A stretch of 64,000 nt of DNA from Elainella saxicola E1. GTDB lineage: Bacteria; Cyanobacteriota; Cyanobacteriia; Elainellales; Elainellaceae. The translations under genes and the position numbers were made by a program. Under the pieces are notes generated by a model. The model was not told the DNA's origin and made no database searches. It saw only the letters and a list, made by a program, of their open reading frames with translations. This document shows, one piece after another, positions 28,890-64,000 of this stretch. Positions within the stretch are counted from its first letter, which is position 1; every line of letters begins with the position of its first letter. The stretch is taken from assembly GCA_002796835.1 (NCBI GenBank), contig LUGL01000014.1:1-64000 (forward strand). Direction: 5' to 3'.

Positions 28890-29056
28890 TTGCTAGCTGT
28901 AATTTCTGGTGTCTTTAATTTGCACTTGCTAGCTGTAGTTTATGATGTAATTCATTGATGCAATGATTAACATCCTATTCCTGATTGCGAGTTGCAAAAT
29001 ACAACAAATATTTTTGCTTGTTTTTTACAGGCAATTATGTAATACTCGCTATTGTT

Positions 29057-29079
29057 AATCTACGGTAAATCGGTAGATT
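29057..29079 (+). promoter_or_regulatory. Operator-like dyad site B (AATCTAC GGTAAATCG GTAGATT, perfect 7-bp arms)
   Basis: Exact 7-9-7 dyad, 122 bp upstream of the LLM ATG at 29202. Confidence 0.7.
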
Positions 29080-29201
29080 TAAAGTATTTTTTAACAAAAG
29101 TTAGTGATACCCTGATTCAATGCGACGTTCTATCTCTGCAATTGGTTAGTCACCTCTATTCATCTTGGACTGAACTCATCTTGAACTTAACAAGGTCGCT
29201 T

Positions 29202-30251
29202 ATGTCCGAACCACGCTATGGGATCTGGATTCCGGTCTACGGCAATTGCGGGGCAATGAATCATCCCAACGAACCTCGTGATGCGAGCTATGCCCGCGCC
29301 AAGTCGTTAATTCAACTCGCAGAAGCTTATGGTTTCACCACAACTTTGATCGCTGAACATATCATTAATCCCCGAAATGCTGAACTCGATCAGCTAGAAA
29401 CCTGGACGGCAGCAGCAGCCTTAGCAGAAGCTACCAATTCGATCGAAATTATTGCGGCAGTGAAGCCCCTTTTGTTTCATCCTGTGGTGCTGGCTAAGAT
29501 GGCGTTGGGGATTGATGCAATTAGCAACGGACGGTTTGCGATCAATTTGGTGAGCGCCTGGTTTAAACCAGAGATCGAAAAATCCGGCATTCCTTTTTTG
29601 CCACATGACGATCGCTATCAATATTCCAGAGAATGGATTTCGATTGTGAAACGCCTCTGGCGAGGAGAGCGCATTAATTTTGAAGGTGAATATTTTCACA
29701 TTACTGATCTAAATTTATCTCCTCCTGCGATCGCCCAACCATACCCAAGAGTTTATTTGGGTGGTGAATCGGATCCGGCCAAACAATTAGCCGCAGAGAT
29801 TGCTGATGTATTTTTTCTCAACGGTCGTCCGATCGATGTGATTCGAGAAACGATCGCTGAAGTGAGCCGTTTACCTCGTCCCCTGGCAAGACCCATTCGC
29901 TTTGCCATGTCAGCATTTGTGATTGCCCGATCAACGGATGAAGAGGCCCAAGCAGAATTTCAATATTTGACGACTTTAGCAGCCCAGGACGATCGTTCCG
30001 AGCTGATGAAAGGGGTCGATGCAGAGGTGGTGATGTTTAAAAATCTGGTGAAATATCCAGCAGTTGGCAGTAATGGCGGCACGGCAGCCGGACTCGTCGG
30101 AAGTTATGACACAGTTGCCACCCGGATTGCAGACTTTGTTGCAGCCGGGATCGACACATTTATGCTGCAATTTCAGCCCTTTACTCCCGAGATGCAACGG
30201 TTCGCAACTGAGGTGATGCCTCGTGTTCGATCCGTTGCTCTCGTTTCCTAA
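29202..30251 (+). CDS. LLM-class flavin-dependent monooxygenase (SfnG/SsuD-like)
   Basis: MSEPRYGIWIPVYGNCGAM...; INLVSAWFKPE...FLPHDDRYQYSREW; GGTAAGLVGSYDTVATRI. ATG 29202 aligns with the paralog at 31170; the ORF-track TTG at 29052 is probably spurious. Confidence 0.87.
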   Translation: MSEPRYGIWIPVYGNCGAMNHPNEPRDASYARAKSLIQLAEAYGFTTTLIAEHIINPRNAELDQLETWTAAAALAEATNSIEIIAAVKPLLFHPVVLAKMALGIDAISNGRFAINLVSAWFKPEIEKSGIPFLPHDDRYQYSREWISIVKRLWRGERINFEGEYFHITDLNLSPPAIAQPYPRVYLGGESDPAKQLAAEIADVFFLNGRPIDVIRETIAEVSRLPRPLARPIRFAMSAFVIARSTDEEAQAEFQYLTTLAAQDDRSELMKGVDAEVVMFKNLVKYPAVGSNGGTAAGLVGSYDTVATRIADFVAAGIDTFMLQFQPFTPEMQRFATEVMPRVRSVALVS

Positions 30252-30292: not shown

Positions 30293-31114
30293 ATGACTGC
30301 AACTTTAGTGCGTCCAGCCTGGACAACCGACTACGAAGTTGAAACATTCAACCGTTTAATCGCCCAATATGCGCCGCATCTACCCACGCAAAAACTGCAT
30401 GATCCGCGACCGATCGCCAGTGCAGCGGAACTAGAAAACTTCTATCCCTATCGGGTTTCTGGTGCTGCGCATGATCTGTTTATTGTTCAACTTTGTGCGA
30501 AGGCGATCGATCGGCTGTTTCTCCAGGATGCAGAAGTGCAGCTGTTTCTGAGTCGCCAAATTGGAGATGATGGTGCCCATGCGCTGGATACCTATCAGCG
30601 AGTGCAAGAATTATCGGGCCAGGATCCGATCGAACAGATCAATCAGCAAGTGCAATATCACTGGGATTATCTGGGGGATGCCCCAACGCGTAATTGGATA
30701 GGTTTTCTGGCATGGCAATTACATTACGAGCTGCATATCGTCTCGACTTTACTGTTAACTAGCCGCCTGACTCGCATCAATGATCCTGGCTCAGCGAGTT
30801 TTGCTGCGGAGCGTATTCTTCCCGATGAATTTGTGCATCGTCAAGCCGTTGTGCAGTGGTGGCAGCGCAAATATGATCAGGCTTCTTTGGCTGAGCGATC
30901 GGAGTGGTCGGCTCAACTGCTGGCGCTCGATGAAGAAATTCAAAAGCGGCGCAATCCTTACTTGAAAGACTTCTGGCAGCGCGCCCAACGTGCACTGGGT
31001 TTTGAGGTTGAGGGATTTGAAGTGATTTATGATGCTTGGCGACGGGAGGTGCTGGCCTACTTCCTGAATATTCCAACCGAGCAACTGCCAAAACTGGTTA
31101 GCCTAAACGATTAA
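30293..31114 (+). CDS. Uncharacterised protein with ferritin-like (di-metal) motifs
   Basis: AAHDLFIVQ, SRQIGDDGAHALD, LHYELH, DEFVHRQAVVQWW, YDAWRREVLAYFLNIP; paralog at 61632..62468 conserves the same motifs. Confidence 0.8.
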   Translation: MTATLVRPAWTTDYEVETFNRLIAQYAPHLPTQKLHDPRPIASAAELENFYPYRVSGAAHDLFIVQLCAKAIDRLFLQDAEVQLFLSRQIGDDGAHALDTYQRVQELSGQDPIEQINQQVQYHWDYLGDAPTRNWIGFLAWQLHYELHIVSTLLLTSRLTRINDPGSASFAAERILPDEFVHRQAVVQWWQRKYDQASLAERSEWSAQLLALDEEIQKRRNPYLKDFWQRAQRALGFEVEGFEVIYDAWRREVLAYFLNIPTEQLPKLVSLND

Positions 31115-31125
31115 GTTGATTGTTC

Positions 31126-31168
31126 TTTGAATATGGAGTAGGGCACTTTTGAATATGGGGCAGGGCAC
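31126..31168 (+). repeat. Imperfect 21-bp direct repeat (TTTGAATATGGRGYAGGGCAC x2)
   Basis: 31126-31146 and 31148-31168 differ at two positions; they lie just before the ATG at 31170. Confidence 0.9.
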
Positions 31169-31169
31169 T

Positions 31170-32225
31170 ATGGTTGAACCCCGCTATGGCATTTGGGCTC
31201 CGGTGGGTGGTAATTTTGGGCCACTGGATACACTTGAAGAACCGATCGATGCTAGCTATCAACGAACGCAACGGCTGGTTCTTCAGGCGGAGCAACTGGG
31301 ATTTACCACGACATTGGTGGCGCAACACATCGCCAATCCACGCGGTCTGGAGCTAGATCAGCTCGAAACCTGGACTACCTCCGCTGCATTGGCCGCAGTC
31401 ACCCACCGGATTGAAATCATCGCGGCAATCAAGCCCTTGCTGTTTCATCCAGCCGTGTTAGCAAAAATGGCCTTGGGCATTGATGAGATTAGTCAGGGCC
31501 GCTTTGCCATTAACTTAATTAGCGCTTGGTTTCGTCCAGAGCTAGAGCGGATTAATGTGCCATTTCTGCCCCATGACGATCGCTATCGCTATTCAGGAGA
31601 ATGGTTACAGGTGGTGAGGGCGCTCTGGAGTGGCGATCGCGTTAACTTTGAAGGCGATCATTTCAAAATTCAAAATTTACAGCTGCGTCCCACTCCGGTT
31701 TCTCAACCGTATCCCCGCATTTATCTGGGAGGAGCCTCTGATCCTGCCCAAATTCTGGCCGCAGAACAGTCCGATGTTTATTTCATCAATGGTCAACCGA
31801 TCGAAGATGTGCGGCAGGTAATTCAGCAGGTGTTAGGTCGATCGCGTCCTCTGCCTCTGCCAGTTCGGTTTGGTTTGGCTGCTTTTGTGATTGCGCGTGC
31901 TACAGATGCCGAAGCCCAGCAGGAATTGGAGCGTCTGCAAGTTTTGCAAGATCGGGAAGAACAATGGCAACTCAGCATTGGCAAAGGGGTTGATCCCGAT
32001 GCAGTGATGTTTCGTCTGTTCGCCAAAAATAAAGCGGTAGGTGGCAATGGCGGCACGGCTGCGGGGCTGGTGGGCAGTTACGATACGGTTGCCTCACGAA
32101 TTGCAGCGTTTCGGGAGATTGGCATCGAAACCTTCATGCTGCAATTCAATCCGTTTGAAATCGAAATGCAGCGCTTTGCGGATGAGGTGATGCCGCGTGT
32201 TAAACGCCTGCAAACTGTCGCTTAG
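31170..32225 (+). CDS. LLM-class flavin-dependent monooxygenase (SfnG/SsuD-like), paralog of 29202..30251
   Basis: MVEPRYGIWAPVGGNFG...; FAINLISAWFRPELERINVPFLPHDDRYRYSGEW; GGTAAGLVGSYDTVASRI. Confidence 0.88.
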   Translation: MVEPRYGIWAPVGGNFGPLDTLEEPIDASYQRTQRLVLQAEQLGFTTTLVAQHIANPRGLELDQLETWTTSAALAAVTHRIEIIAAIKPLLFHPAVLAKMALGIDEISQGRFAINLISAWFRPELERINVPFLPHDDRYRYSGEWLQVVRALWSGDRVNFEGDHFKIQNLQLRPTPVSQPYPRIYLGGASDPAQILAAEQSDVYFINGQPIEDVRQVIQQVLGRSRPLPLPVRFGLAAFVIARATDAEAQQELERLQVLQDREEQWQLSIGKGVDPDAVMFRLFAKNKAVGGNGGTAAGLVGSYDTVASRIAAFREIGIETFMLQFNPFEIEMQRFADEVMPRVKRLQTVA

Positions 32226-44023: not shown

Positions 44024-45358
44024 TCAGCCTACCTCAGCGAGGGACTTGGTCGTCAATCCCAGATGATCTTTTAAGGTAGACCCGGTATATTCGGTGCGGA
44101 ACAGTCCTCGCTTCTGAAGTTCTGGCACCACTGTATCTACAAATTCGGTGAAGGTTCCCGGCAAATGAGCTGGAGAAATCACAAAACCATCGCAGGTGCC
44201 ATCCCGGAATAGGGCTTCCAGATAGTCAGCAATCTGTTTCGGTGTTCCAACGACATGAGGCGTCAACACGCCCTGGCCATACAGTTTGCCAATGTCTCGT
44301 AGCGTCAAACCATCAGACTGGCTCAACTCCCTGGCCGCTTGCAAAATACTTTGGCTGCCATTCACATGAATATCAGCGATCGGCGCATCCAGATCATGCT
44401 GAGAAAAGTCATAATCCATGTGACTGGACAAGGTGAAAAGGCCGACTTCTGGATGAATCAACTCATTGTGTAATGCCTGTTTCTCCCTGGCGATCGCCTC
44501 TGTTTCTCCAATAAACGGCGTGATCGCAGGCAGAATTTTACAGTCATCGGGATGCCGTCCAAACTTGCTTAAGCGGGACTTTAAGTCCTGATAAAATGCC
44601 TTCATTTGAGCAGGCGTGTGTTTAATCTCAAAAATCACCTCGCCCCACTGCGCCGCAAAATCTTTGCCCCGTTCAGAGCCGCCTGCCTGGACCAACACCG
44701 GACGACCCTGGGGCGATCGCGGCACAGTCAGTGGTCCCCGTACCTTAAACCACTCGCCAACATGGTGGATATAATCCACTTTTTCAGGATCGGCAAATAT
44801 CCCGGTTGATTTGTCTAAAATCAGCGCATTCTCCTGCCAGCTATTCCAGAGCTTGTCGGCAACCTCTACAAATTCAGCTGCTCGTTCATAACGACGATCA
44901 TGTTCAAGATGCTGTTCCAACCCAAAATTCTGGGCTTCTGAGTTGCGGCTAGAGGTGACGATGTTCCAGGCGGCTCGCCCTTTTGAAAGATGATCGAGTG
45001 TCGCGAAAGTACGAGCAACATCATAGGGTTGGTAGTAAGTTGTAGAGCGCGTGATGCCCACTCCGATCGATCGCGTTGCAACAGCCATTGCGGTTGCAGT
45101 CAACATGGGATCGAGTCGAACGACTCCTTGGGCTCCATACTTGAGTCCCAGATCAAACCGATTGTCATGGCGATCGGGAAAGGCCAGCGCATCGGCAAAA
45201 AAGACCATGTCAAATTTGCCACGCTCCAAGGTTTGAGCAATGGTCTGGTAAAACTCAGGCGTTAAAAAATCCAGTACAGTTTGAGGATGCCGCCAGATTG
45301 CATGGCTAAGAACGACATGGGACGAGTGCATGAAGCCAACCAGATGCATTTGTTTCAT
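44024..45358 (-). CDS. NtaA/SnaA/DszA-family FMNH2-dependent monooxygenase
   Basis: MKQMHLVGFMHSSHVVLSHAIWRHP; close paralog of 32253..33563. Confidence 0.9.
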   Translation of the reverse strand: MKQMHLVGFMHSSHVVLSHAIWRHPQTVLDFLTPEFYQTIAQTLERGKFDMVFFADALAFPDRHDNRFDLGLKYGAQGVVRLDPMLTATAMAVATRSIGVGITRSTTYYQPYDVARTFATLDHLSKGRAAWNIVTSSRNSEAQNFGLEQHLEHDRRYERAAEFVEVADKLWNSWQENALILDKSTGIFADPEKVDYIHHVGEWFKVRGPLTVPRSPQGRPVLVQAGGSERGKDFAAQWGEVIFEIKHTPAQMKAFYQDLKSRLSKFGRHPDDCKILPAITPFIGETEAIAREKQALHNELIHPEVGLFTLSSHMDYDFSQHDLDAPIADIHVNGSQSILQAARELSQSDGLTLRDIGKLYGQGVLTPHVVGTPKQIADYLEALFRDGTCDGFVISPAHLPGTFTEFVDTVVPELQKRGLFRTEYTGSTLKDHLGLTTKSLAEVG

Positions 45359-45372
45359 CGTATCGTTGGCCC

Positions 45373-46272
45373 CTAAAATACAGGAACTACCGTGCCGCTA
45401 AATGTGGTTTGAATAAACTCCTTGACTTTTGGCTGAACGACAAGTTGATTCAGTTTTTGGATGTTTGGATCGTTCTGCTTGGATCGCACTGTGACTAAAC
45501 CAGTTGCGTAGAATCTATCATCTGTAGGGGCTTGTAGAATCGGGGTGAGATCAAGTTTTGCCAATTTTAGGAGCGTTGCATAAGTTACTCCGATATCAAC
45601 ATCATCCAGCGCTCTTGCTAGAGCAGGACCTTCGACTTCTTTAACATCGAGTTTTTTAGGATGATCGGTAATGTCTTTGAGCGTGAATAATCCGTCTGGA
45701 TTATCCTTTAAATTGATCAAGCCATTATCTCTCAGCAACTTCAACCCTCGATCGCGATTAATTGGATCGCTATGCACGGCGACTGTTGCCCCGTCAGGAA
45801 TTTCATCAACGGATTTGAGATTGAGCTGCTTTGAATAAATACCAAACACACTAATGTAAATCCGGTTGAGCAGCACCAAATCTAGATTCTGTCGCTTAGC
45901 GGCATCCTCCATATAGGCTTGATGTTGGAAGAAATTGACGTCAATTTCTCCGCTCTGCAATGCATTGTTAATTTGCACCCAATCGCTGATTTTGACAATC
46001 TCAACTTCTAGATTTTGACTGGGTGCAATCTCTTTCTGAACAAATTTCAGAATATCTTCAGGAACGACAACTGCAACCCCAACTTTGACTTTACTTACTG
46101 GCTGAGGAGAAGTCGTTGTGCTGGCTGAATTCTGGTTTCTTGTACAGCTTGAAAATAGAATTGAGGCGATCGAAGCAGCTCCACCCAACAGGACAGAACG
46201 ACGACTGCTTGACCTGAGAAGAGCGTGATGATTTTGATGAGCCGATCGATTGAGGGGATGTGGAATGGTCAT
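45373..46272 (-). CDS. MetQ/NlpA-family substrate-binding lipoprotein
   Basis: Lipobox ILFSSCTR; VEIVKISDWVQINNALQSGEIDVNFFQHQAYMEDAAKRQNLDLVLLNR. Confidence 0.87.
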   Translation of the reverse strand: MTIPHPLNRSAHQNHHALLRSSSRRSVLLGGAASIASILFSSCTRNQNSASTTTSPQPVSKVKVGVAVVVPEDILKFVQKEIAPSQNLEVEIVKISDWVQINNALQSGEIDVNFFQHQAYMEDAAKRQNLDLVLLNRIYISVFGIYSKQLNLKSVDEIPDGATVAVHSDPINRDRGLKLLRDNGLINLKDNPDGLFTLKDITDHPKKLDVKEVEGPALARALDDVDIGVTYATLLKLAKLDLTPILQAPTDDRFYATGLVTVRSKQNDPNIQKLNQLVVQPKVKEFIQTTFSGTVVPVF

Positions 46273-46295
46273 TTTGATGTTCTTTGCGGATACTT

Positions 46296-47537
46296 TTAGA
46301 AAAAGCCTTTTGTGGGTAAAGCGATATCATTCAGTTCGTAATTACCGATCGCCCTTGCCTTCAAAGGATTAGGATTGTGGGAGGACAGCGTACGTGCATT
46401 ACGCCAATGTCGATCGAGGTTATAGCTTTTCTTGGTGGTAGAAGCGCCGCCCACATCAAACAGCAGGGTCGCTGAACGCAGAGTCAGCTCATCCACAATC
46501 AATTTTGCTTTCGCGGCACTCAGAGAGGCTTCCAGAGCAGCTTTCTCCTCTGCGACTTCCCCTTCCTGTTCTCGAATGGTATCCAGTCGTCCAAAGGCAG
46601 CAGCAGCGGCCAGAACGATCGATTCAGCGGCAAAAGCATTCGCAGAAATTTGGCCGATCGTTTGCTGCAACAGCGGATCTTCTGTAGCTTGTTCAGACAC
46701 TGCATGGTAGAAGGTGCGAGGACGTTTGTGAACAAGATTGATCGCGTCATGCAGAACACTACGAATAATTCCCGCATTGACTGCCGTTAAGAACAGTTGC
46801 GGCACAATGTTGTAGGGCAAATAATCTTTGTCTGAATCGCTGTCCAGGATGACCTCGTCTGCCTCTACATGCACATCTGTAAAGGTGGTAGTGCCTGTTC
46901 CAGTTAATCGTTGGCCAAAACCATCCCAATCATCGACCAATTCAATACCTTCGCGATGAGAAGGGAGAATCACAAACGCAGTCTCATCATTTGGAGTTAA
47001 TACACTGACAAAGATCAGGTCCGAGAACAAACTGCCGGTACTGTAATACTTCGTCCCGTTTAACCGATAGCCATTCTGGTCAGGCGTTAATTTCGTATTC
47101 ACAACCTGTCCACCGCCTGCTCGCTTCACTTCCAACTCAGTAAAGGCGAGTCCAATAATTGCACCCTCGGCGACTGCTTTCAGCCATCGACGATTACGTT
47201 CACTCCGCTGCGATCGCAAAATTCGTTCGGTGACAGAGAAATGATTCCGTACAATATGGGCAACATTCGGATCTGCCTCTCCCAGGCGAATCACAAGCTC
47301 AAACAGCTCACGGGCCGTGCTGCCACCTCCCCCTTCAGCCAGTGGAATGCGTAGGGCACCTAACTTTGACTGCCGAATTAGATTGATCGCGTCATAGGGA
47401 AGAATTCGATCGCGATCGCGTTCAGCAGCACCCAGAGCAATATAGTCAAACAGCTTTTGCAGTTCGGGAGAGCTAGCCGTGACAGGCGTTGGGAAGTGAA
47501 ATGTGGCGTCTAAAACTTTTTCGGCGGTCTGAGTCAT
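46296..47537 (-). CDS. SfnB/DszC-like acyl-CoA dehydrogenase-family monooxygenase
   Basis: MTQTAEKVLDATFHFPTP...; LRIPLAEGGGGSTARELFELVIRLGEADPNVAHIVRNHF; KSYNLDRHWRNARTLSSHNPNPLKARAIGNYELN. Confidence 0.86.
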   Translation of the reverse strand: MTQTAEKVLDATFHFPTPVTASSPELQKLFDYIALGAAERDRDRILPYDAINLIRQSKLGALRIPLAEGGGGSTARELFELVIRLGEADPNVAHIVRNHFSVTERILRSQRSERNRRWLKAVAEGAIIGLAFTELEVKRAGGGQVVNTKLTPDQNGYRLNGTKYYSTGSLFSDLIFVSVLTPNDETAFVILPSHREGIELVDDWDGFGQRLTGTGTTTFTDVHVEADEVILDSDSDKDYLPYNIVPQLFLTAVNAGIIRSVLHDAINLVHKRPRTFYHAVSEQATEDPLLQQTIGQISANAFAAESIVLAAAAAFGRLDTIREQEGEVAEEKAALEASLSAAKAKLIVDELTLRSATLLFDVGGASTTKKSYNLDRHWRNARTLSSHNPNPLKARAIGNYELNDIALPTKGFF

Positions 47538-47902
47538 GGTACTTCTCACTAGAATGGTTGGGCCTGTTGCCCCAATTTCATGCATCTGAAGCACAAGTGA
47601 ATGTTCCTGTAAGGACAGGTTGCAAGACATCCCTACAAAAGTGCTTTTACTGATCAGAACTGATGGTTACTTGAGGATGTCAACAGGACCGATCGACTTG
47701 TGCACATGAAAAAATCAAGGCAGATGCCGACATCTATAAAAATAAATGCAGCTACCTATTTTAAGATGTTCAATTGGTGGGAGCAACGAGAGAGATCAGC
47801 AATTAAAATTGATGCTGTATTAGAATAAGTTGCTCTAAACTATTAGCATAGTTCAGCCAAAAAAGCAGGTATATCGAGTCACAAATTTCTGAATTGGCTA
47901 AT

Positions 47903-53939: not shown

Positions 53940-54648
53940 CTAATTGCCTGGACTGGACTGTTTCAGCCAGAGCTGAACTGAGGGATGCTGCCATTGTTCA
54001 TTGGCGTAGGTAACTAAATGGTTCGGTACGGGATCCCCATTGAAAATCAGGCGATTCAGCGTCACTGCCAGATCGACATCTGCGATCGACCATTGTTCAA
54101 ACAGAGTTTTGGCATTGTCAGGCAGCAAGAACTCGGCAGCAGAAATCAGCTTCTCTGCGGCTCGTTGCGCCTCTGGAGAGAGGGGTGGCCAGGTTTCTCC
54201 CGCAAATACCACTTCAGTGGGGCGTTCCTGTTTTAAGGGCGTCAGATCACTGCGGATCCAGGCCTGAATCTGACGAGCTCTGGCTCGATTCTGAGTATCG
54301 GCTGGATATAAGGCAGTGCCTGGAAATACTTCATCGACATATTCTGCGATCGCTGAAGATTCAGATAGCGCAAATCCATCGTGAATCAAAGTTGGAACGC
54401 GATGGGTGAGCGACTTGGCGGCATAGTCAGGGTCATGCTGGGCTTTGGCTCCTAGATCGACCGGTTGAATGTCGAATGGTAATGCTTTTTCATGCAGAGC
54501 CACAAAGGCAGACAGCGCATATGGCTCCTAGATCGACCGGTTGAATGTCGAATGGTAATGCTTTTTCATGCAGAGCCACAAAGGCAGACAGCGCATAGGG
54601 GCTGAAGTATTCGGAATCGACATAAAGAATCAGCGATGGAGATGACAT
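53940..54648 (-). pseudogene. Glutathione S-transferase-like gene frameshifted by a 76-bp tandem duplication
   Basis: N-terminus MSSPSLILYVDSEYFSPYALSAFVALHEKALPFDIQPVDLGA (start 54648) and body ...ALPFDIQPVDLGAKAQHDPDYAAKSLTHRVPTLIHDGFALSESSAIAEYVDEVFPG are in different frames. Removing 76 bp leaves 633 nt, a continuous 210-aa frame. Confidence 0.85.
54446..54597. repeat. 76-bp perfect tandem duplication (54446-54521 and 54522-54597)
   Basis: TGGCTCCTAGATCGACCGGTTGAATGTCGAATGGTAATGCTTTTTCATGCAGAGCCACAAAGGCAGACAGCGCATA occurs twice head-to-tail. Confidence 0.95.
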
Positions 54649-54785: not shown

Positions 54786-55859
54786 TCAAGCGGTTGGCTT
54801 TGCCGCTGGTTTTGCTGGAGATGGATCGCTTCCTACCCCATTCAAAGCCTTCTCGATGCGGCTGAAATCAAATCCTAATGCCCGCAGTGCATGCCAAAGA
54901 TGCCCTTGCAGGAAGAAGAACGCCAGGAAGAAGTGAGCATTGGCCAGCCAGGCACGAGATGTATGAGCTCCCAGAGGTAGCTTGATTGTATCTGCGAAAT
55001 AAGGGGTAATTCCAAATTTGATATCTAAAGGAGGACCATAAAACTCAACAGGGTACGCCAGCGTATTTACTGCCGAGAAATAAGCTGCTACGAATCCAGC
55101 TAGGGCGATGCCTCCCAATGAATAGGATAAAATAGCTTCTCCTGAGAAAATCAAAGCTTTTTTAGCCCAGTCCAAGGGTGGAACCAGGATATGCCAGATG
55201 CCTCCAGCAATTAATACAATCCCGACGTAAATGTGGCCGCCGACCAAGTCTTCCAAGCTGCTAATGCTGGCGAAGTGAGTTTGATAACCATAAATCACCC
55301 ATGGATTCAAGGTTGGGTTACTGACCAGACGCACCGTTTGGGTTGTTGCATCATACAGACCGCCAAAATACACCGCTTTTGCAGCCAGTAATAACGCCCC
55401 TGCGCCTAAAAACAGCAGGTGATGCCCTAGAATCAGACCCAACTTAGCAGGATCATTCCATTCAAAATGAAAATTGCGAGCTGCACCAGAAGCATCCTTG
55501 AGGCTTGGGGGCACTCTCAAGGTATGGAACAAGGCTCCTGCTCCCAACACAGCTGAAGATATTAAATGGATAACGCCAATGACAAAGTATGGATAAGTAT
55601 CGATGACCTGACCGCCATCCCCAATCCCCAACCCTAAGGTTGCCAGGTGAGGTAACAGGATGAGCCCTTGTTCTCCTAATGGCAGATCGGGTGAAAATTG
55701 AGAAATTTCAAACAGCGTAAATGAACCGGCCCAAAAGGCAATCAGTGCAGCTTGGGCGACATGTGCTGCGATGAATAATCCTGAAGAATCTGCAAAGCGG
55801 GCATTACCAGCCCACCATTCATACTTGATGTCGGGATCACCGTAGTTTTGCAAAGACAT
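54786..55859 (-). CDS. isiA: IsiA-type chlorophyll a-binding protein (CP43')
   Basis: [126 protein letters not shown] 55859 gives MSLQNYG. Confidence 0.92.
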
Positions 55860-56205
55860 GAATTTTTCTCCTTCATTGTTGACCAGCATAATCTTGTGCA
55901 GACTATTTGACGGTTCAATCCTCCTCTACTAGTTGGAAAACAGTAGAGCAACCCAAACTCAAACAGCGAGACATATTATACTGATGCGTGCAGTGTAATC
56001 TTGCAAGCCACGAAGCATCAAGATCTGGAGATACAAAATTATGATTACTATTTTTTATAATTAGTTGAATAATTAGCGGTATTGCCTGTTTTGGCAAGGA
56101 TGTTATTGGATATACAATTTCAGTGAGTATTTAGGCTGTGAAATCGATCGCCTCAATTGGCAGAGAACCCCCCTTATTTTGCGATCGATCTTGAATTTCT
56201 GATTA

Positions 56206-56535
56206 CTACGGCTCGTAGTTAAAGAATTTGGCAGATTCTTCTCTTTGGGCAGCAGGAGTACGTCCTTTTCCCCAGCCGAGATGTTGACGATATGAACCCA
56301 TCAATCCGGTTTGGACCAATGTTGCTTCATCGACCTCAATAGACTGATCGGCATAGGGCGCAACAAACAGCGCATCAACCGGACAGTAGACTTCGCAAAG
56401 ATAGCAGGTCTGGCAATCGCTTTGACGGGCAATTTGTGGTGCTGCGTCAGGCACTGGATCAAATACGTTAGTTGGACAAACGCTCACGCAAAGATTACAG
56501 GCAATGCAGCGTGACTCGCTCACTAATTCAATCAC
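56206..56535 (-). CDS. 2x[4Fe-4S] ferredoxin-family protein
   Basis: CIACNLCVSVCPTNVFDP and CQTCYLCEVYCPVDALFV. Confidence 0.9.
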   Translation of the reverse strand: MIELVSESRCIACNLCVSVCPTNVFDPVPDAAPQIARQSDCQTCYLCEVYCPVDALFVAPYADQSIEVDEATLVQTGLMGSYRQHLGWGKGRTPAAQREESAKFFNYEP

Positions 56536-58172
56536 AGCTTCACAAACTCCCGATTTGAAACAGCCTGTTCAGGTTGGACCCAAACGCGATCGAGCCCACC
56601 GCTCAGCAACCGATATTGATAGTTATCATCTAAATCGGGATAATCTTCATGCTGGTGCATTCCCCGCGACTCTTTGCGTTCCAGTGCCGTAGCATACATC
56701 CAGCGTGCGGTTGCCACCATCGCCGCCACCTCCCTCGCTTGAACGGCCCGATCGAAAGAAGCAACCGTTTGATGGCGCAGGTAATCCCATAGGGTATGCA
56801 GTCGCTCCAGCGAAGCCGATAAGCCCTGCTCTGTGCGGAACAGATTGCGATCGTAAGGCAAGACTTCGTCCTGTACCGCCTGAATCATTTCTGCTGGGTT
56901 GATCGGATTTTGATTTCCCACTCGCAGAGCTGTTTGACCGGCGGGTTGGAGCGATCGATGATGGATTCCGGCCCCCAACTGACGAGCAAACGTTGCTGCC
57001 GCTGCCCCTGACCAACAGCCCGATGCGCTAGCCCAGGCTGCGTTTGGACTCCCTCCGCCCGATGCACCGCCGCAAATCAACTCTCGTGAGGCTGCATCCC
57101 CAGCGGCATAGAGTCCAGGAACGCTCGTCGCGCAGGTTTGATCGATAACGCGCAGTCCGCCCGAACCTCGCACTGTGCCCTCCAGCCGTAACGTAACTGG
57201 AAACCGTTGTGTGAATGGATCAAGTCCCAATCGCTCGAACGGTAAGAAGAAGTTATGTTGAATGGTGCGCATCCACTGCTGTTCTTCCGGCGAGGCTTTG
57301 TCGATGCGGGCATAAACAGGCTGCTGCTTGACTAATATCCGGGCAATGGTGCGGCGATCGCCCGGTTCAACCACAGACCCATCTTCGGTTGTAAAGGTGG
57401 CATAGCGATAATATGCGCCTTTTGTGACTGTGGCAAAGGCAGGAGATAAGCCGTATACGTTAGAGAACTCCATTCCCGATAGATGTGCCCCAGCTTCAGC
57501 CGCCATTAGGTAGCCATCGCCCGTCAGCACATTGCAGCCCAGCGTTTTACTGAGAAAGGCGCAGCCCCCGCTTGCCAAAATGACAGCTCCGGCCCGAATG
57601 GTCCAACGTCTTCCTAACTGGCGTGAAACCCCATTGGCTCCGGCCACTCTTCCCTCTGAATCGAGCAGTAATTCTAGGGCCGGACTATGGTCCAAAATAG
57701 TGACGCCTGCTTTCTTTACCTGCTTGCGCATCAGCCGCATATATTCTGGGCCTTGATGGAGAGAAGGAAGATAAGGTGCACCCGTCGCATCTCGTGAAAA
57801 GGGATAACCCCAGTCTGCTAAACGATGCAAGTTGATCCGGGTTTGATCTAAAACGCGCTCCATCCAGCCCCGATCGGAGAGATACCCGCCCTTAAGCTCT
57901 CGTTGGTGCAACTCTGCCTCGCGATCGTCTGGATCAGCGACATACCAAACGGTTGTTCCGGCAGCGGCGGTAGCTCCACTCGTCCCGCAATAGCCTTTAT
58001 CGACCAGAATCACTTTGGCTCCCTGCTGCGCGGCGCTCCAGGCAGCCCAGGTCCCTGCCGGACCACCCCCAATCACGAGCACCTCTGTTTCAAGGGTCAA
58101 ACCCGGCTCACCCGTCGATGTGGTTTTTGTAGCGGTATGGATGCTCACAAGGATGAATCTCCTCAGCGTCAA
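56532..58172 (-). CDS. FAD-dependent oxidoreductase of the fumarate reductase/AprA flavoprotein family
   Basis: VLVIGGGPAGTWAAWSAAQQGAKVILVDKGYCGTSGATAAAG; AVILASGGCAFLSKTLGCNVLTGDGYLMAAEAGA; GLYAAGDAASRELICGGASGGGSPNAAWASA. Overlaps the ferredoxin ORF by 4 bp. The start could be GTG 58145. Confidence 0.87.
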   Translation of the reverse strand: MTLRRFILVSIHTATKTTSTGEPGLTLETEVLVIGGGPAGTWAAWSAAQQGAKVILVDKGYCGTSGATAAAGTTVWYVADPDDREAELHQRELKGGYLSDRGWMERVLDQTRINLHRLADWGYPFSRDATGAPYLPSLHQGPEYMRLMRKQVKKAGVTILDHSPALELLLDSEGRVAGANGVSRQLGRRWTIRAGAVILASGGCAFLSKTLGCNVLTGDGYLMAAEAGAHLSGMEFSNVYGLSPAFATVTKGAYYRYATFTTEDGSVVEPGDRRTIARILVKQQPVYARIDKASPEEQQWMRTIQHNFFLPFERLGLDPFTQRFPVTLRLEGTVRGSGGLRVIDQTCATSVPGLYAAGDAASRELICGGASGGGSPNAAWASASGCWSGAAAATFARQLGAGIHHRSLQPAGQTALRVGNQNPINPAEMIQAVQDEVLPYDRNLFRTEQGLSASLERLHTLWDYLRHQTVASFDRAVQAREVAAMVATARWMYATALERKESRGMHQHEDYPDLDDNYQYRLLSGGLDRVWVQPEQAVSNREFVKL

Positions 58173-58381: not shown

Positions 58382-59176
58382 TCAGGGATCGATGAATGCT
58401 AAAACAGCCTGATTAAACGCGGCAGGTGTTTCCCAGAGAAAATTATGTCCGGCTTGAGCAACCCATTGTAGTTGAGCGTTGGGAATGTCTGTGGCGAGTT
58501 TGTGCGCCTGTGCGGTTGGGATGAGACGATCTGCTGCTGCTGCCAGGACTAGCGTGGGTGCTGAAATCTGCTGGAGTTGATTTCGCGTATCGTGAGTCAG
58601 ACAGGCGGCAAGTTGCCCCGCAAAACCCGCAGTTGTTTGAGGATAGGGATACTGTAACGAGTCCTGAATGAGTTGATCAACCTGCTGGGGATCCCCAAAG
58701 AATCGATCGGTGAATAGCCAGGGAAGTTGCGATCGCATCCGCGTGGCAGGTCTAACTTTGTCTTGCATCATCTGCAACCAATTCTGAAGAATATGTTGAG
58801 TGACTGGCGGCAGATAAGCTGCTGTATTTACCAATAGCAATCGGTTTACTCGCTCAGGATGGTGCAATGCCAAAATTTGAGCGATCAGTCCACCCATGGA
58901 AAATCCCAAAACATCAGCCTGATCGATTTCTAGAGCATCGAGTAGCGCGATCGCATCTTCAGCCATCTCCTCAGTGGTATAGCTCGCTGCAGGCTGATCC
59001 GTTCTCCCAACGCCGCGATGATCTGGCAAGATCAGCTGGTGCTGCTGCGATAAAGCCGGAATCTGATAAACCCAGGCTGCACTGTCTAACCCCAATCCCT
59101 GAAGCAGCAGAATTGGATTGCCTGTTCCCTGGATTTCGTAGTACAGGTTGATTCCGCGCAGGTGAATGGTGGGCAT
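58382..59176 (-). CDS. Alpha/beta-fold hydrolase
   Basis: ILLLQGLGLDSAAWVYQIPAL, LPDHRGVGRTDQP, VLGFSMGGLIAQILALHHPERVNRLLLVNTA, AGHNFLWETP. Confidence 0.92.
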   Translation of the reverse strand: MPTIHLRGINLYYEIQGTGNPILLLQGLGLDSAAWVYQIPALSQQHQLILPDHRGVGRTDQPAASYTTEEMAEDAIALLDALEIDQADVLGFSMGGLIAQILALHHPERVNRLLLVNTAAYLPPVTQHILQNWLQMMQDKVRPATRMRSQLPWLFTDRFFGDPQQVDQLIQDSLQYPYPQTTAGFAGQLAACLTHDTRNQLQQISAPTLVLAAAADRLIPTAQAHKLATDIPNAQLQWVAQAGHNFLWETPAAFNQAVLAFIDP

Positions 59177-59351: not shown

Positions 59352-60236
59352 TTAGAACGGGCGACTTCCCTGGATGCTAACCCGCTTCAAAATCCGGGTG
59401 GCGTTGGACGCAAACGCAGGCCGATAATGTGCCGTTGCCTGATTGTCCCAATAGAGCAGATCGCCTTCGCTCCAATGGTGGCTATAGGCCAGATGAGGCT
59501 GCGTGATATGTTCCCGCAGACGTGCGATCAGTTTTTCGCCTGCTGCATGGTCATAATCCACAATGTCAACATCACCTGCTGCATTCAGGTAGAGAATTTT
59601 CTTACCCGTATCTGGGTGAGTCCGTACAAGAGGATGAATCGCCACTCGTTCACCCGGCTCAAGGGTGCGACCTGCCGCATAGTTCGGTGTAGCATATTCA
59701 TCTCGATGCTTGCCGTAAAAGTTGATATGGCGAAGCTGCAAGTCTGCAATTTGCTGTTTTGTGGCCTCATCCAGCTCATCGTAAGCCTGAATCAAATTGA
59801 ACCAGGTCGTGTCAGGGCCACCATCTTCTGGTAATTTGATTGCTTGCAGCAAAGAACCGCTGGACGGCACGGGTAGCCAATCGTGATCAATATGGGGCAA
59901 TAAGGCTCGGTGGTTAGGAATGGTATTCACCGAACTCTCTTCTGTGGCCGCATTCGCCAACGTTAAAACCAGGGGCGGCAAATAAGGTTCGGTTTCGCCT
60001 TTGCGAACGTAGGCTGGCTGCTGGAGGATATCGCCAAAATAGCTGGCAAAAGCGATCTGCTGCTCATCGGTTAGTTTTTGATTCTTAAAGATCAGGAGGG
60101 AATGATCGCGCCATGCCTGTTTGAGTTGCAGAACTACTTCAGGTGCAAGCGGACGGCTGACATCTAGGCCTGTGACGATCGCACCCAGCGCTTTGCCAGT
60201 TGGCGTAATTTCAATTTGGGTTGCAGTAAAGGTCAT
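59352..60236 (-). CDS. TauD/TfdA-family 2-oxoglutarate-dependent dioxygenase
   Basis: ITPTGKALGAIVTGLDVSRPL, LLIFKNQKLTDEQQIAFASYFGD, LLPHIDHDWLPVPSSGSLLQAIKLPEDGGPDTTWFN, YSHHWSEGDLLYWDNQATAHYR. Confidence 0.92.
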   Translation of the reverse strand: MTFTATQIEITPTGKALGAIVTGLDVSRPLAPEVVLQLKQAWRDHSLLIFKNQKLTDEQQIAFASYFGDILQQPAYVRKGETEPYLPPLVLTLANAATEESSVNTIPNHRALLPHIDHDWLPVPSSGSLLQAIKLPEDGGPDTTWFNLIQAYDELDEATKQQIADLQLRHINFYGKHRDEYATPNYAAGRTLEPGERVAIHPLVRTHPDTGKKILYLNAAGDVDIVDYDHAAGEKLIARLREHITQPHLAYSHHWSEGDLLYWDNQATAHYRPAFASNATRILKRVSIQGSRPF

Positions 60237-60340: not shown

Positions 60341-61609
60341 TCAAAGTCTCAGACCTGCTTGTTTCAGCAAGGGCAAAACCCGCCGACCAAATAATTCCAG
60401 ATCGGGTTCAAAATCATAGAAGGCGATTTGAAACCCATCCACTCCAGCCTGACGCAGCTGTACAAATTGTTCGGCAATCTGTTCTGGGGAACCAATCAAC
60501 TGAACATTGCCGCCGATCGCGCTGCCGACGCCGTGCCGCAAGTTGCCGCGCTGGTGACCTCTCCAGGCATGGGCATCGCCATAGGACCGGGAACGAGCAG
60601 CGATCGATTCATGATCGGCGTGATCGATAATGTCCTGGGCATATTGTTGTGCTTCCCGTTCCGTTTCGCGAACGATAATTAGCGGATTCAGCAATGTTCG
60701 CACCTGTCTCCCTTGCGCGATCGCCGACTGTTTCACCCGTTCGGTATGAGCTGGCAAAGAGGACAGCGCACTGTCAATATCACTGCCGCCGGGACTGGTG
60801 ATGAACACAATGTCAGAATGACGGCCCGCATAGTCGATGCCCGCATCCGAACCCGTCGCATTCACCAGAATTGGGCGACCGTAGAGCGATCGAGGACTAA
60901 TATAGGCATCTTTGAACTGCCAGGAAGACAGTTGACTTTGATAAGAAAAGCTCTCTGTTTCAGCCCATAATCGCTTCAGCACCGTCACGAACTCATCGGC
61001 CATGGCATAGCGGCGATCGTGCTCGATCTGATTCCAGCCAAACAGCTCATGCTCATAGGCCCGGAATCCCGTCACCACATTAATGCCCCAGCGACCTTTG
61101 GAAATGTGATCGAGCGTTGCTCCAAATTTCGCCAGATGAATCGGATGCCAGGGGCCGTACAGGACATGAAGGGTCGAGATCAGCAGAATTCGTGATGTGA
61201 TGCTGGCTAAGGAGGCGATCGCGATGAAGGCATCTAATCCTGCTTCGGTGCGGGTGGGTCCCTGTCCTCCTTTGGGCTGCCAGTGAGCATAGCCAAACAC
61301 CAGATCAAAACCCAGTGCTTCTGCGGTTTGGGTTAATTTGGCGTTATAGTCAAACGACCAGTCCGTCCCGCGTGGCAAAGTGGAGGAACTCCAGCCGCCA
61401 TGATGAATTGGCAGAAACAATCCCAGCAGGATGGGTTGACGCAGCGCCTGTGAGAGTGGACTATCAGGATAATCGGCGGGACCCAATGCAACACTACTAC
61501 CTGCGGCATGATTTACTTTGAAAGCAGCCGTATCTGCCGTATCTATTGCTGTCATCGCCAAGTCTCCTTTCTGTGACTCATTTTGTATTGAAATCGATGA
61601 AGTTACCAC
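60341..61609 (-). CDS. LLM-class flavin-dependent monooxygenase (SsuD/RutA-like), paralog of 51240..52424
   Basis: LSQALRQPILLGLFLPIHHGGWSSSTLPRGTDWSFDYNAKL; LDHISKGRWGINVVTGFRAYEHELFGWNQIEHDRRYAMADEF. Confidence 0.88.
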   Translation of the reverse strand: MVTSSISIQNESQKGDLAMTAIDTADTAAFKVNHAAGSSVALGPADYPDSPLSQALRQPILLGLFLPIHHGGWSSSTLPRGTDWSFDYNAKLTQTAEALGFDLVFGYAHWQPKGGQGPTRTEAGLDAFIAIASLASITSRILLISTLHVLYGPWHPIHLAKFGATLDHISKGRWGINVVTGFRAYEHELFGWNQIEHDRRYAMADEFVTVLKRLWAETESFSYQSQLSSWQFKDAYISPRSLYGRPILVNATGSDAGIDYAGRHSDIVFITSPGGSDIDSALSSLPAHTERVKQSAIAQGRQVRTLLNPLIIVRETEREAQQYAQDIIDHADHESIAARSRSYGDAHAWRGHQRGNLRHGVGSAIGGNVQLIGSPEQIAEQFVQLRQAGVDGFQIAFYDFEPDLELFGRRVLPLLKQAGLRL

Positions 61610-61631
61610 CGCTCAGTCATGAGCTTGCTGT

Positions 61632-62468
61632 TCAGGCGTCATCATGCACACTCACCAATGGAGGCAACTGATCGATCGGAATATCCAGCAGATAGGACAG
61701 ATCTTCCCTACGCCAAGCGTCGTAAATATCCCCAATTTCCTCAATATCATCAATTCCGGCAGCTAAGTAGCCCTTATGCCAATAGTTGTTTTTAAGGTTG
61801 GCACTGCGTCTCCGCTGAAATTCATTGTCAACCTCTAGTAGCTTGGCCGCCAATTCAGCTTTTTCATCTACTGAGGCCGCATCGTACCGTTCTTTCCACC
61901 AGTCAATCACCGCATAGCGATGCACTGCCTCATCGGGTATGACTTTGTCAGCAAAGTAGCTTGATGTTTCTGGATCCTTGATGCGGCCAACTTTGCCATT
62001 CAGCAGAAATGGAGCCACATTGTGAAGTTCGTAATGCAGCTGGAATGCAGCAAATCCAAACCAGTCCCGAATCGGTAAATCGCCCAAGTCGTCCCACTGA
62101 GCCTGGATGAGCTGATTCACTTCATCGATCGGATCGTAGCCCAATAATTCTCGCGCTCGCAGCACGCTATCGAGGGCATGCACCCCATCATCTCCAAGTT
62201 GTCGGCTGAGGATGAGTTGCCAATGCGGGTCATCAATAATCGGACCGATGGCTTTAGCAATGGCCTGGACAATAAACAAGTCATGGGCCGCAGCAAAGAC
62301 TCGATATTGGCCGATGTTTTTGATTTCTTCTGGTGTCTCTGGTGGACGAGTCTCGGAGCGATCGACAACGGGTAAATTGGGAGCATGTTGTGCAACTAGG
62401 CGATCGAGCAGCTGGGTTTCATATTCAAAGTCCCAGGCAGGTTTGGTTAAGGTTGCAGTCATAGTCAA
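61632..62468 (-). CDS. Uncharacterised protein with ferritin-like (di-metal) motifs, paralog of 30293..31114
   Basis: AAHDLFIVQ, SRQLGDDGVHALD, LHYELH, DEAVHRYAVIDWW, YDAWRREDLSYLLDIPIDQLPPLVS. Confidence 0.82.
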   Translation of the reverse strand: MTMTATLTKPAWDFEYETQLLDRLVAQHAPNLPVVDRSETRPPETPEEIKNIGQYRVFAAAHDLFIVQAIAKAIGPIIDDPHWQLILSRQLGDDGVHALDSVLRARELLGYDPIDEVNQLIQAQWDDLGDLPIRDWFGFAAFQLHYELHNVAPFLLNGKVGRIKDPETSSYFADKVIPDEAVHRYAVIDWWKERYDAASVDEKAELAAKLLEVDNEFQRRRSANLKNNYWHKGYLAAGIDDIEEIGDIYDAWRREDLSYLLDIPIDQLPPLVSVHDDA

Positions 62469-62549
62469 TCTCCTATCCTAATTTCCAATCGAGTCCGTTA
62501 ATTGGGCAGCATCGCCTTTCAGCTCCTTGTGGATCCGAAGGACAGCCCC

Positions 62550-63467
62550 CTAGAAAGCAGAAGGCAAAATCGTTCCCTTAAAATTGGTGGCGATGAAGTC
62601 CTTTAACTTTTGATCGGTCAGCAATTGATTTAATTTCTGAATGTCCGGATCATTTTCTTTTTCCTTGACAGTTGCTAACCCGATCGCATATTTTTTCTCT
62701 GCAATGCCTGCCTCATCCAATAAGATCGGATCCAATTGCAACTTAGCTTGAGCCAGAATCAGCGCATAGCTGACGCCATAGTCCAGGTCATCTAAACCTC
62801 TGGCGATCGCATAGTTATCCAATTCCTGGAGCTTAATTTTCTTAGGATGATCGACGACGTCCTTAACGGTGAAGAAACCATCTGCCTTGTCCTTCAAATT
62901 GATCAGCCCGATCGTTTTCAGGAATTTCAAAGATCGATCCTGGTTGCTGTCGTCATTGGAGATGCCGATCGTGGAACCTTCTGTCACTTCATCTGCTGAT
63001 TTAATGGCATGTTTCTTGGAATAGAGGCCAAAGATCGGCGTATAGGCTCGATTCAGCATCACGAAGTCTGCGCTGAGCCGCTTGGCTGCCTGATTCATAA
63101 ACAGCTGATGTTGGAAAAGGTTCGCATCCACTTCTCCATTCTTCAAGGCATCATTGATCTTGACTGAATCCCCAATCGTCACGATGTCGAACTTCACGCC
63201 CTGGCTGGGTGCAAGCTCAGTTTGAATAAATTTCAAAATATCGTCACTGGTGCTGTTACGGGAACCTATTTTCAGCGTTTTGGCAGGTGCAGCAGCACTT
63301 GGACTTGCAGCCACACTTGGACTGGCCGTTGAACTTTGGCTAGCGGACTGATTCTGAGAATTGGTGCAGCTTGCAAACAGGACAGAAGCGATCGCTGACC
63401 CTGCTCCCATAAGAAAGTAGCGCCGCTGTATTCCAACTGAATAGATGTTGTTGCGTTTTGCGCTCAT
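62550..63467 (-). CDS. MetQ/NlpA-family substrate-binding lipoprotein
   Basis: Lipobox VLFASCTN; FDIVTIGDSVKINDALKNGEVDANLFQHQLFMNQAAKRL; ATG 63467 (MSAKRNN). Confidence 0.86.
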   Translation of the reverse strand: MSAKRNNIYSVGIQRRYFLMGAGSAIASVLFASCTNSQNQSASQSSTASPSVAASPSAAAPAKTLKIGSRNSTSDDILKFIQTELAPSQGVKFDIVTIGDSVKINDALKNGEVDANLFQHQLFMNQAAKRLSADFVMLNRAYTPIFGLYSKKHAIKSADEVTEGSTIGISNDDSNQDRSLKFLKTIGLINLKDKADGFFTVKDVVDHPKKIKLQELDNYAIARGLDDLDYGVSYALILAQAKLQLDPILLDEAGIAEKKYAIGLATVKEKENDPDIQKLNQLLTDQKLKDFIATNFKGTILPSAF

Positions 63468-63560
63468 ATCATCGGTTTCTCCAAAACACAAATTTGAGGT
63501 TGATTGTATTGGTGACGCTAAGACGAAAATTGGTGCATCATCAAGCTGACAGCATGACGA

Positions 63561-64000
63561 TTAGAAAAATCCACCCTGGGGTAAAAGAGTGCCATTGATT
63601 TCGTAGTCACCGATCGCCTTTGCTTTGAAGGAGGGCGGATTATGAGAAGACAGGGTGCGGGCGTTGCGCCAATGGCGATCGAGGTTATAGGTAGTCTTTG
63701 TGGTGGAAGCTCCACCCACATCGAACAAGAGTGTGGCAGAACGGAGCGTCAGGTCATCTACCACCAATTTGGCTTTTGCAGCCTGTAAAGATGCTTCTAG
63801 AGAGGCTGCCAACTTCGCATCTTCATCCGTTAGTGTCACCGCAAACCGATCGAGCGCATCTGCTGCGGCCAACACAATGGCTTCTGCCGCAAAGGCATTC
63901 GCGGCAATTTGGCCCACAGTTTGCTGCAGCAAGGGATCTGCGGACGCTTGTTCAGAAACCGCATGGTAGAACGTCCGAGGACGGGTGTGCACCAGATTTT
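63561..64000 (-). CDS. SfnB/DszC-like acyl-CoA dehydrogenase-family monooxygenase (5' part beyond the right edge)
   Basis: Open to the window end; NLVHTRPRTFYHAVSEQ...KTTYNLDRHWRNARTLSSHNPPSFKAKAIGDYEIN; paralog of 46296..47537. Confidence 0.85.
   Translation of the reverse strand, partial: NLVHTRPRTFYHAVSEQASADPLLQQTVGQIAANAFAAEAIVLAAADALDRFAVTLTDEDAKLAASLEASLQAAKAKLVVDDLTLRSATLLFDVGGASTTKTTYNLDRHWRNARTLSSHNPPSFKAKAIGDYEINGTLLPQGGFF

Follow-up and report, generated by a model that had tools for sequence, protein, structure and literature searches.

Gene organization of the locus

What does a small ferritin-like protein contribute when its gene lies directly beside that of a flavin monooxygenase, and is such a pairing more than an accident of position? 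The question is raised by Elainella saxicola E1, in which the window analysed here, that is, the whole stretch of 64,000 nucleotides (positions 1-64000), comes from a draft assembly of 8.7 Mb, on a contig that extends 2975 bases past the window end. The window is an organosulfur island: 8 of the 15 LLM (bacterial luciferase-like) flavin monooxygenase genes of the genome fall inside it, and it is also rich in MetQ, SfnB-like and ABC transporter genes, with several of each.

The gene in question (61632..62468), encoding a ferritin-like, probably diiron protein of 278 amino acids that represents the family studied here, lies in a long run of minus-strand genes. Upstream of it are the genes of an SfnB/DszC-like flavin monooxygenase with the acyl-CoA dehydrogenase fold (63561..64000 in the window and on to contig base 64649; Acyl-CoA_dh_2, 2e-10) and of a MetQ/NlpA-like substrate-binding lipoprotein (62550..63491; Pfam NlpA lipoprotein, 2e-48). 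Beginning 22 nt downstream of it is the gene of an SfnG-like LLM flavin monooxygenase (60341..61609; Bac_luciferase, 4e-52), followed by those of a TauD/TfdA-like Fe(II)/2-oxoglutarate dioxygenase (59352..60236; Pfam TauD, 1e-50), an alpha/beta hydrolase (58382..59176), an AsfA-like flavoprotein reductase (56532..58172) and an AsfB-like 2x[4Fe-4S] ferredoxin (56206..56535), the last two overlapping by 4 nt. With first-start gene calls, the intergenic gaps from the SfnB-like gene through MetQ, the family gene and LLM to TauD are 69, 81, 22 and 104 nt, and co-transcription of these five genes is plausible. A scan for sigma-70 promoters and terminators gave site counts no higher than those in shuffled sequences; therefore, no transcript boundaries are claimed. 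Neither metN nor metI was found beside the MetQ-like gene, and no FMN reductase gene was recognised in the vicinity. The same-strand organosulfur run also contains a CP43/IsiA-like chlorophyll-binding protein gene (54786..55889; PF00421), which marks the genome as cyanobacterial and is absent from every other family neighbourhood examined, and a glutathione-S-transferase-like gene (53940..54503), similar genes of which occur near 8 other family loci.

A first family copy of 273 amino acids is encoded on the plus strand at 30293..31114 and is flanked on either side by an SfnG-like LLM gene of the same orientation (29052..30251 and 31149..32225), the two LLM products being 61% identical. In other cyanobacteria, LLM genes of the 29052 type stand immediately before the family gene. 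In addition, the window contains a paralogous minus-strand unit of SfnB-like, MetQ and NtaA/DmoA-type LLM genes without a family gene (44024..47630).

Sequence and predicted fold of the family protein

The 61632 and 30293 proteins are 51% identical, and all columns that are invariant across 12 relatives are common to both, in agreement with the preliminary description, which held that the paralog at 61632 keeps every motif of the 30293 protein. No credible match to the family protein was obtained in Pfam, NCBIfam and PHROG scans. Among 39 members scanned, only weak matches (E 0.003 or worse) were returned, none of them over the cut-off for a named Pfam or NCBIfam ferritin-like family; the NrdF model was matched by 5 of the 39 members, with E of 0.003 at best. 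Isolated weak Pfam matches to DUF6800 and PolyA_pol_arg_C were judged to be due to chance. A PDB sequence search with 12 sequences returned nothing, and the same search with 39 members gave a weak match to E. coli NrdF (3n37; E 1.3), in which the ExxH motif on helix 4 of the family (pDEavH) was aligned to IIRDEAVH. In NrdF, the Glu and His of the RDEAVH motif are ligands of the diiron centre.

The AlphaFold model, built from 8 sequences, is confident and consists of long helices (pLDDT 91.4, pTM 0.89). When it was compared with the PDB using Foldseek, the best matches were PaaA/PaaC-type proteins, ribonucleotide reductase R2 and CmlI, with a probability of ~1.00, TM of about 0.5 and E of at least 0.02. 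The model shows the four-helix bundle of the ferritin-like superfamily, matched at TM of only about 0.5, and on this predicted structure the superfamily assignment is clear enough, while a close structural relative was not found by Foldseek. Like the family as predicted here, PaaA/PaaC (phenylacetyl-CoA monooxygenase), R2/NrdF and CmlI/AurF are all-helical, with His/carboxylate candidates on four helices. The haem-oxygenase-like diiron oxidases UndA, SznF and BesC are likewise small, all-helical and O2-activating at a dimetal site with His/carboxylate ligands. However, such an identity was rejected because the Foldseek search returned ferritin-like structures instead; moreover, the candidate residues of the family are spread over four helices, and ferritin-like enzymes carry their ligands on four helices (PMC13108848).

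The putative site comprises H62-D63, D93-D94-xx-H97, H145-Y-E147-x-H149 and E180-xx-H183, distributed in the AlphaFold model over four helices with one set per helix, and is kept in nearly all 83 sequences. Q68, D214, Q218, Y249, D250 and R253 are likewise nearly invariant, and W125 and Y146 are conserved too. Of the diiron ligand pattern, ExxH is present on helix 4. Unlike ferritin-like diiron oxygenases, with their E, ExxH, E arrangement, the family carries His-Asp on helix 1, where Glu/Asp is usual, DDxxH (DxxH in its spacing) on helix 2 and HYExH on helix 3. The residues on helices 1-3 are, by analogy, candidate metal ligands. The family differs from those oxygenases also in having no Pfam or NCBIfam match and in operons that point to organosulfur use. 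Taken together, sequence and model suggest that the family protein is probably diiron (or Fe/Mn), and by analogy with its fold relatives it may be an O2-activating enzyme.

In one tandem copy (L096, 15433-16248), H62, H97, E147, H149 and E180 are all changed together, and no other observation on the sequences speaks more strongly for a single cofactor served by the five residues. In the tree, the same copy sits at the base of a distinct clade made up of second copies, of which the other 11 members retain most putative ligands.

Linkage to LLM genes in other genomes

The preliminary description argued that two pairings with different LLM subfamilies in the window reflect functional coupling rather than chance. 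Because the window holds so large a share of the genomic LLM genes, two pairings within it alone would be weak evidence. The linkage was examined in a census of 66 loci from cyanobacteria and betaproteobacteria, with the window and duplicates set aside. An LLM gene lay within 5 kb of the family gene at 57 of the 66 loci, and at 32 of them an LLM gene was the immediate same-strand neighbour (<350 nt), counts that overstate independence, as the locus copies are related by descent. Furthermore, 9 of 24 family copies in 12 other genomes lay <500 nt from an LLM domain, whereas random placement expects 0.09. The adjacency of family gene and LLM gene exceeds chance. An absence of conserved linkage elsewhere had been named beforehand as the finding that would speak against the coupling; it was looked for, and linkage was found instead.

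The commonest pairing, with 29 copies, has the 29052-type LLM gene directly upstream of the family gene, usually a few tens of bases off. In f2, a family within the window's phylum, both genes were present in 34 and neither in 142 of 193 genomes, while 11 had only the family gene, and in 6 the 29052-type LLM was present but no family gene was detected (Fisher 3e-22, kinship uncorrected). The LLM at 60341 belongs to another subfamily than the 29052/31149 pair (27% identity to 29052), so the abutting of a different LLM subfamily on the 61632 gene was correctly described; this type is also paired with the family gene in Janthinobacterium, where the gap is 3 nt. An NtaA/DmoA-type LLM is the partner in genome G1182 and in Ralstonia, where 5 nt separate the two genes. 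Inheritance of the family gene and LLM 60341 as one unit with Janthinobacterium is not supported, since LLM 60341 shares more with its own paralog 51240 (62% identity) than with the LLM paired in Janthinobacterium (57%).

Some family copies stand alone, with no LLM gene within about 10 kb (L016, L017, L018, L132 and L136), in genomes that have 1-4 LLM genes each where these were counted; therefore, a neighbouring LLM gene is not obligatory. L016 and L017 have in common a neighbourhood containing an XPB-like helicase and DUF790, so that some family copies may have another role.

Companion genes and operon orders

Among 69 loci, the neighbours counted were MetQ (44), SfnB (37), SsuA-like (37), AsfA-like (18) and TauD (7), and LLM, SfnB and MetQ genes were found together on one strand within 10 kb at 26 of 66 loci. 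The alpha/beta hydrolase is rare in other family neighbourhoods. Of the catabolic unit of five genes that had been proposed, the SfnB and MetQ members are regular companions elsewhere, whereas TauD is not. In the Burkholderia-type genomes the companions form one operon, with the order metQ, NtaA/DmoA-type LLM, metN, metI, family gene and sfnB-like, where the family gene and the sfnB-like gene share 4 nt. The expected recurrence of the order SfnB-MetQ-family-LLM-TauD was not borne out: among the 66 loci it was not found, and it is seen only in this window. In the tree, 61632 groups (100/99) with the copies of G1182 (L103) and G1033 (L105), and its closest relatives, at 58-59% identity, are likewise beside SfnB and MetQ genes: the order is metQ-metQ-LLM-family-sfnB-sfnB in L103, and the family gene is between metQ and sfnB in L105. 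As judged from this placement, 61632 is a sulfur-operon subtype and not a recent duplicate of the 30293 copy. In G1274, a genome of the same family as E1, the 29052-type LLM, the family gene, MetQ, SsuA-like, the 60341-type LLM and SfnB are all on one strand.

LLM 60341 is a member of the LLM superfamily (PF00296, 177.9 bits against a cut-off of 27.9) and is only SfnG-like, as its score for the SfnG dimethylsulfone monooxygenase model TIGR04021 (210.9 bits) is under the cut-off of 382.95. Similarly, MetQ-like 62550 scored 106.9 bits with TIGR00363 (cut-off 228.85) and is well above the cut-off of PF03180, and TauD-like 59352 scored 157.7 bits with PRK09553 (cut-off 313) and is above that of PF02668. 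Against TIGR04022 (cut-off 430.9), both the truncated SfnB-like 63561 gene (280 bits) and its intact paralog (298 bits) fell below. The SfnB-like companions also match the DszC model, with up to 350 bits in Burkholderia. DszC is a sulfur-oxygenating flavin enzyme. The preliminary description gave the work of the unit as uptake, oxidation and desulfonation; of these, desulfonation is a candidate step, as LLM, MetQ and TauD score well below the cut-offs for SfnG, MetQ and taurine dioxygenase, and companions of the MetQ and DszC/SfnB types would fit thioethers or sulfoxides no worse than sulfonates. The AsfA-like (56532) and AsfB-like (56206) proteins are 57% and 62% identical, respectively, to an adjacent pair in Cupriavidus metallidurans CH34 (L156, 5945-7863).

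Distribution of the family

Of 341 genomes sampled from the window's phylum, 5 carried the family, as did 45 of 193 genomes of f2 and 2 of 196 genomes among the near relatives of E1, E1 counted. In the betaproteobacteria, 58 of 68 genomes of one genus carried it, and plasmid-collection records of the same gene were from Burkholderia; Janthinobacterium and Ralstonia have it too, and only 2 of 399 sampled genomes of the betaproteobacterial phylum at large do. An initial scan of public genomes, which returned Janthinobacterium only, was superseded by these whole-genome searches. The Burkholderia and Ralstonia regions in PLSDB were unannotated, and their genes were called from ORFs and profiles; gene calls in the high-GC loci are mechanical. 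The patchy occurrence in two phyla suggests horizontal transfer.

Proposed function and alternative explanations

We favour, with moderate confidence, the reading that the family consists of ferritin-like, probably diiron, O2-activating enzymes that work in organosulfur scavenging alongside flavin monooxygenases. In the route that we infer, a MetQ-type transporter would take up a small organosulfur compound, SfnB/DszC-like and LLM-type reduced-flavin monooxygenases would then oxidise its sulfur and cleave the C-S bond, and the ferritin-like enzyme would further oxidise the same substrate or a product of the cleavage; sulfite or cysteine sulfur could then be assimilated. Group D monooxygenases of the SfnB/DszC kind oxidise dimethyl sulfide and sulfoxide, taking sulfide to sulfone (PMC13352529), and LLM-type enzymes act on sulfonates, sulfones and sulfoxides by breaking the C-S bond (PMC10863075). 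Because a ferritin-like O2-activating enzyme needs electrons, transfer from the downstream AsfA/AsfB-like reductase-ferredoxin to the putative metal site is proposed; AsfA/AsfB are such a pair in arylsulfonate use (PMC4267179, PMC2864759).

The proposed route can be set beside several known systems. In the SfnB/SfnG, MsuD/SsuD and DmoA systems, the LLM and SfnB-like companions belong to the same flavoenzyme superfamilies, but the window proteins score under the curated SfnG and SfnB cut-offs, and no ferritin-like component of these sulfur operons was found in the open-licence literature. The CmoO/CmoJ salvage of S-alkylcysteine, in which thioether sulfoxidation is followed by flavin-dependent C-S cleavage (PMC10863075), resembles the proposed route, and uptake of an amino-acid type would match MetQ, but no ferritin-like enzyme is described there. 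With the asfRABC arylsulfonate system (PMC2864759), the window shares the AsfA/AsfB-like pair downstream on the same strand, whereas the tie between this pair and the family protein is one that we infer.

Several other explanations have to be weighed against an O2-activating enzyme. The family protein might support the LLM enzyme in a non-catalytic or structural role, as subunit or scaffold within a two-component monooxygenase, comparable to PaaC beside PaaA. Its close pairing with LLMs from several subfamilies would agree with this, as would the presence of PaaC, itself ferritin-like and non-catalytic, among the best fold matches and the existence of tandem pairs with one copy lacking the putative site. 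Nevertheless, we regard it as unlikely, because, with one exception, the 83 sequences keep the putative metal site almost unchanged, stand-alone copies without LLM occur, and the adjoining LLM type changes freely, which a dedicated interface would resist. Reduced-flavin monooxygenases leak H2O2, and the family could instead protect against uncoupled reduced-flavin chemistry of LLM and SfnB enzymes, as an iron store, a peroxidase or a scavenger of O2 or H2O2. Its predicted ferritin-like fold is consistent with such a role, for which many different LLM types as partners would be expected; however, the family is low-copy and operon-embedded, is present in a minority of lineages and lies mostly at organosulfur loci, and the eight residues conserved beyond the putative ligands suggest a specific pocket, making protection quite improbable.

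Mere co-residence, in which organosulfur islands collect unrelated scavenging genes and the family acts independently there, receives some support from the window, itself such an island, and from tandem and scattered family copies without an adjacent LLM. It is nonetheless very unlikely: when placement was confined to 20 kb around LLM genes, adjacency was still ~8x the expectation (9 of 21 against 1.1; p about 4e-7, for copies that are not phylogenetically independent), and the pairing recurs with different flanks in Janthinobacterium, Ralstonia and Burkholderia-type genomes.

To our knowledge, bacterial organosulfur scavenging has been described almost entirely as flavin (SsuD, SfnG, MsuD and DszC) or 2-oxoglutarate (TauD) chemistry. 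If the O2-activating enzyme is real, a non-haem metal step would be added to these pathways, and many proteins without any family model could be annotated by function. The family is probably an overlooked part of bacterial organosulfur scavenging, and its conservation in organosulfur operons of two phyla provides a defined gene set to test. More tentatively, it may represent a new class of histidine-rich dimetal ferritin-like oxygenases in flavin-dependent C-S cleavage, within a sulfur-assimilation route that mixes non-haem iron and reduced flavin and is common to cyanobacteria and betaproteobacteria.

Truncation of the SfnB-like gene by an insertion sequence

The SfnB-like gene that was described at the head of the proposed unit is present, but its 5' end has been lost to an insertion sequence beyond the window. 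For comparison, the intact SfnB-like gene at 46296, from the 44024-47630 unit, was used. Homology of 63561 to this paralog ends at L013:9770, and a 905-bp insertion sequence (contig 64774-65678) starts at about L013:9775; six further copies of the element have the same edge within a few bases. The start codon and the first ~10 codons have been replaced by the insertion sequence, and in the remaining frame the first possible ATG, GTG or TTG start does not come before L013:9650, ~40 codons inside the homologous part. Therefore, in the E1 genome, the SfnB-like gene heading the proposed unit is without its start and its former promoter. The 905-bp element abuts an apparent IS256-type transposase gene near the contig end (contig C74:64774-66975, corresponding to L013 9775-11976).
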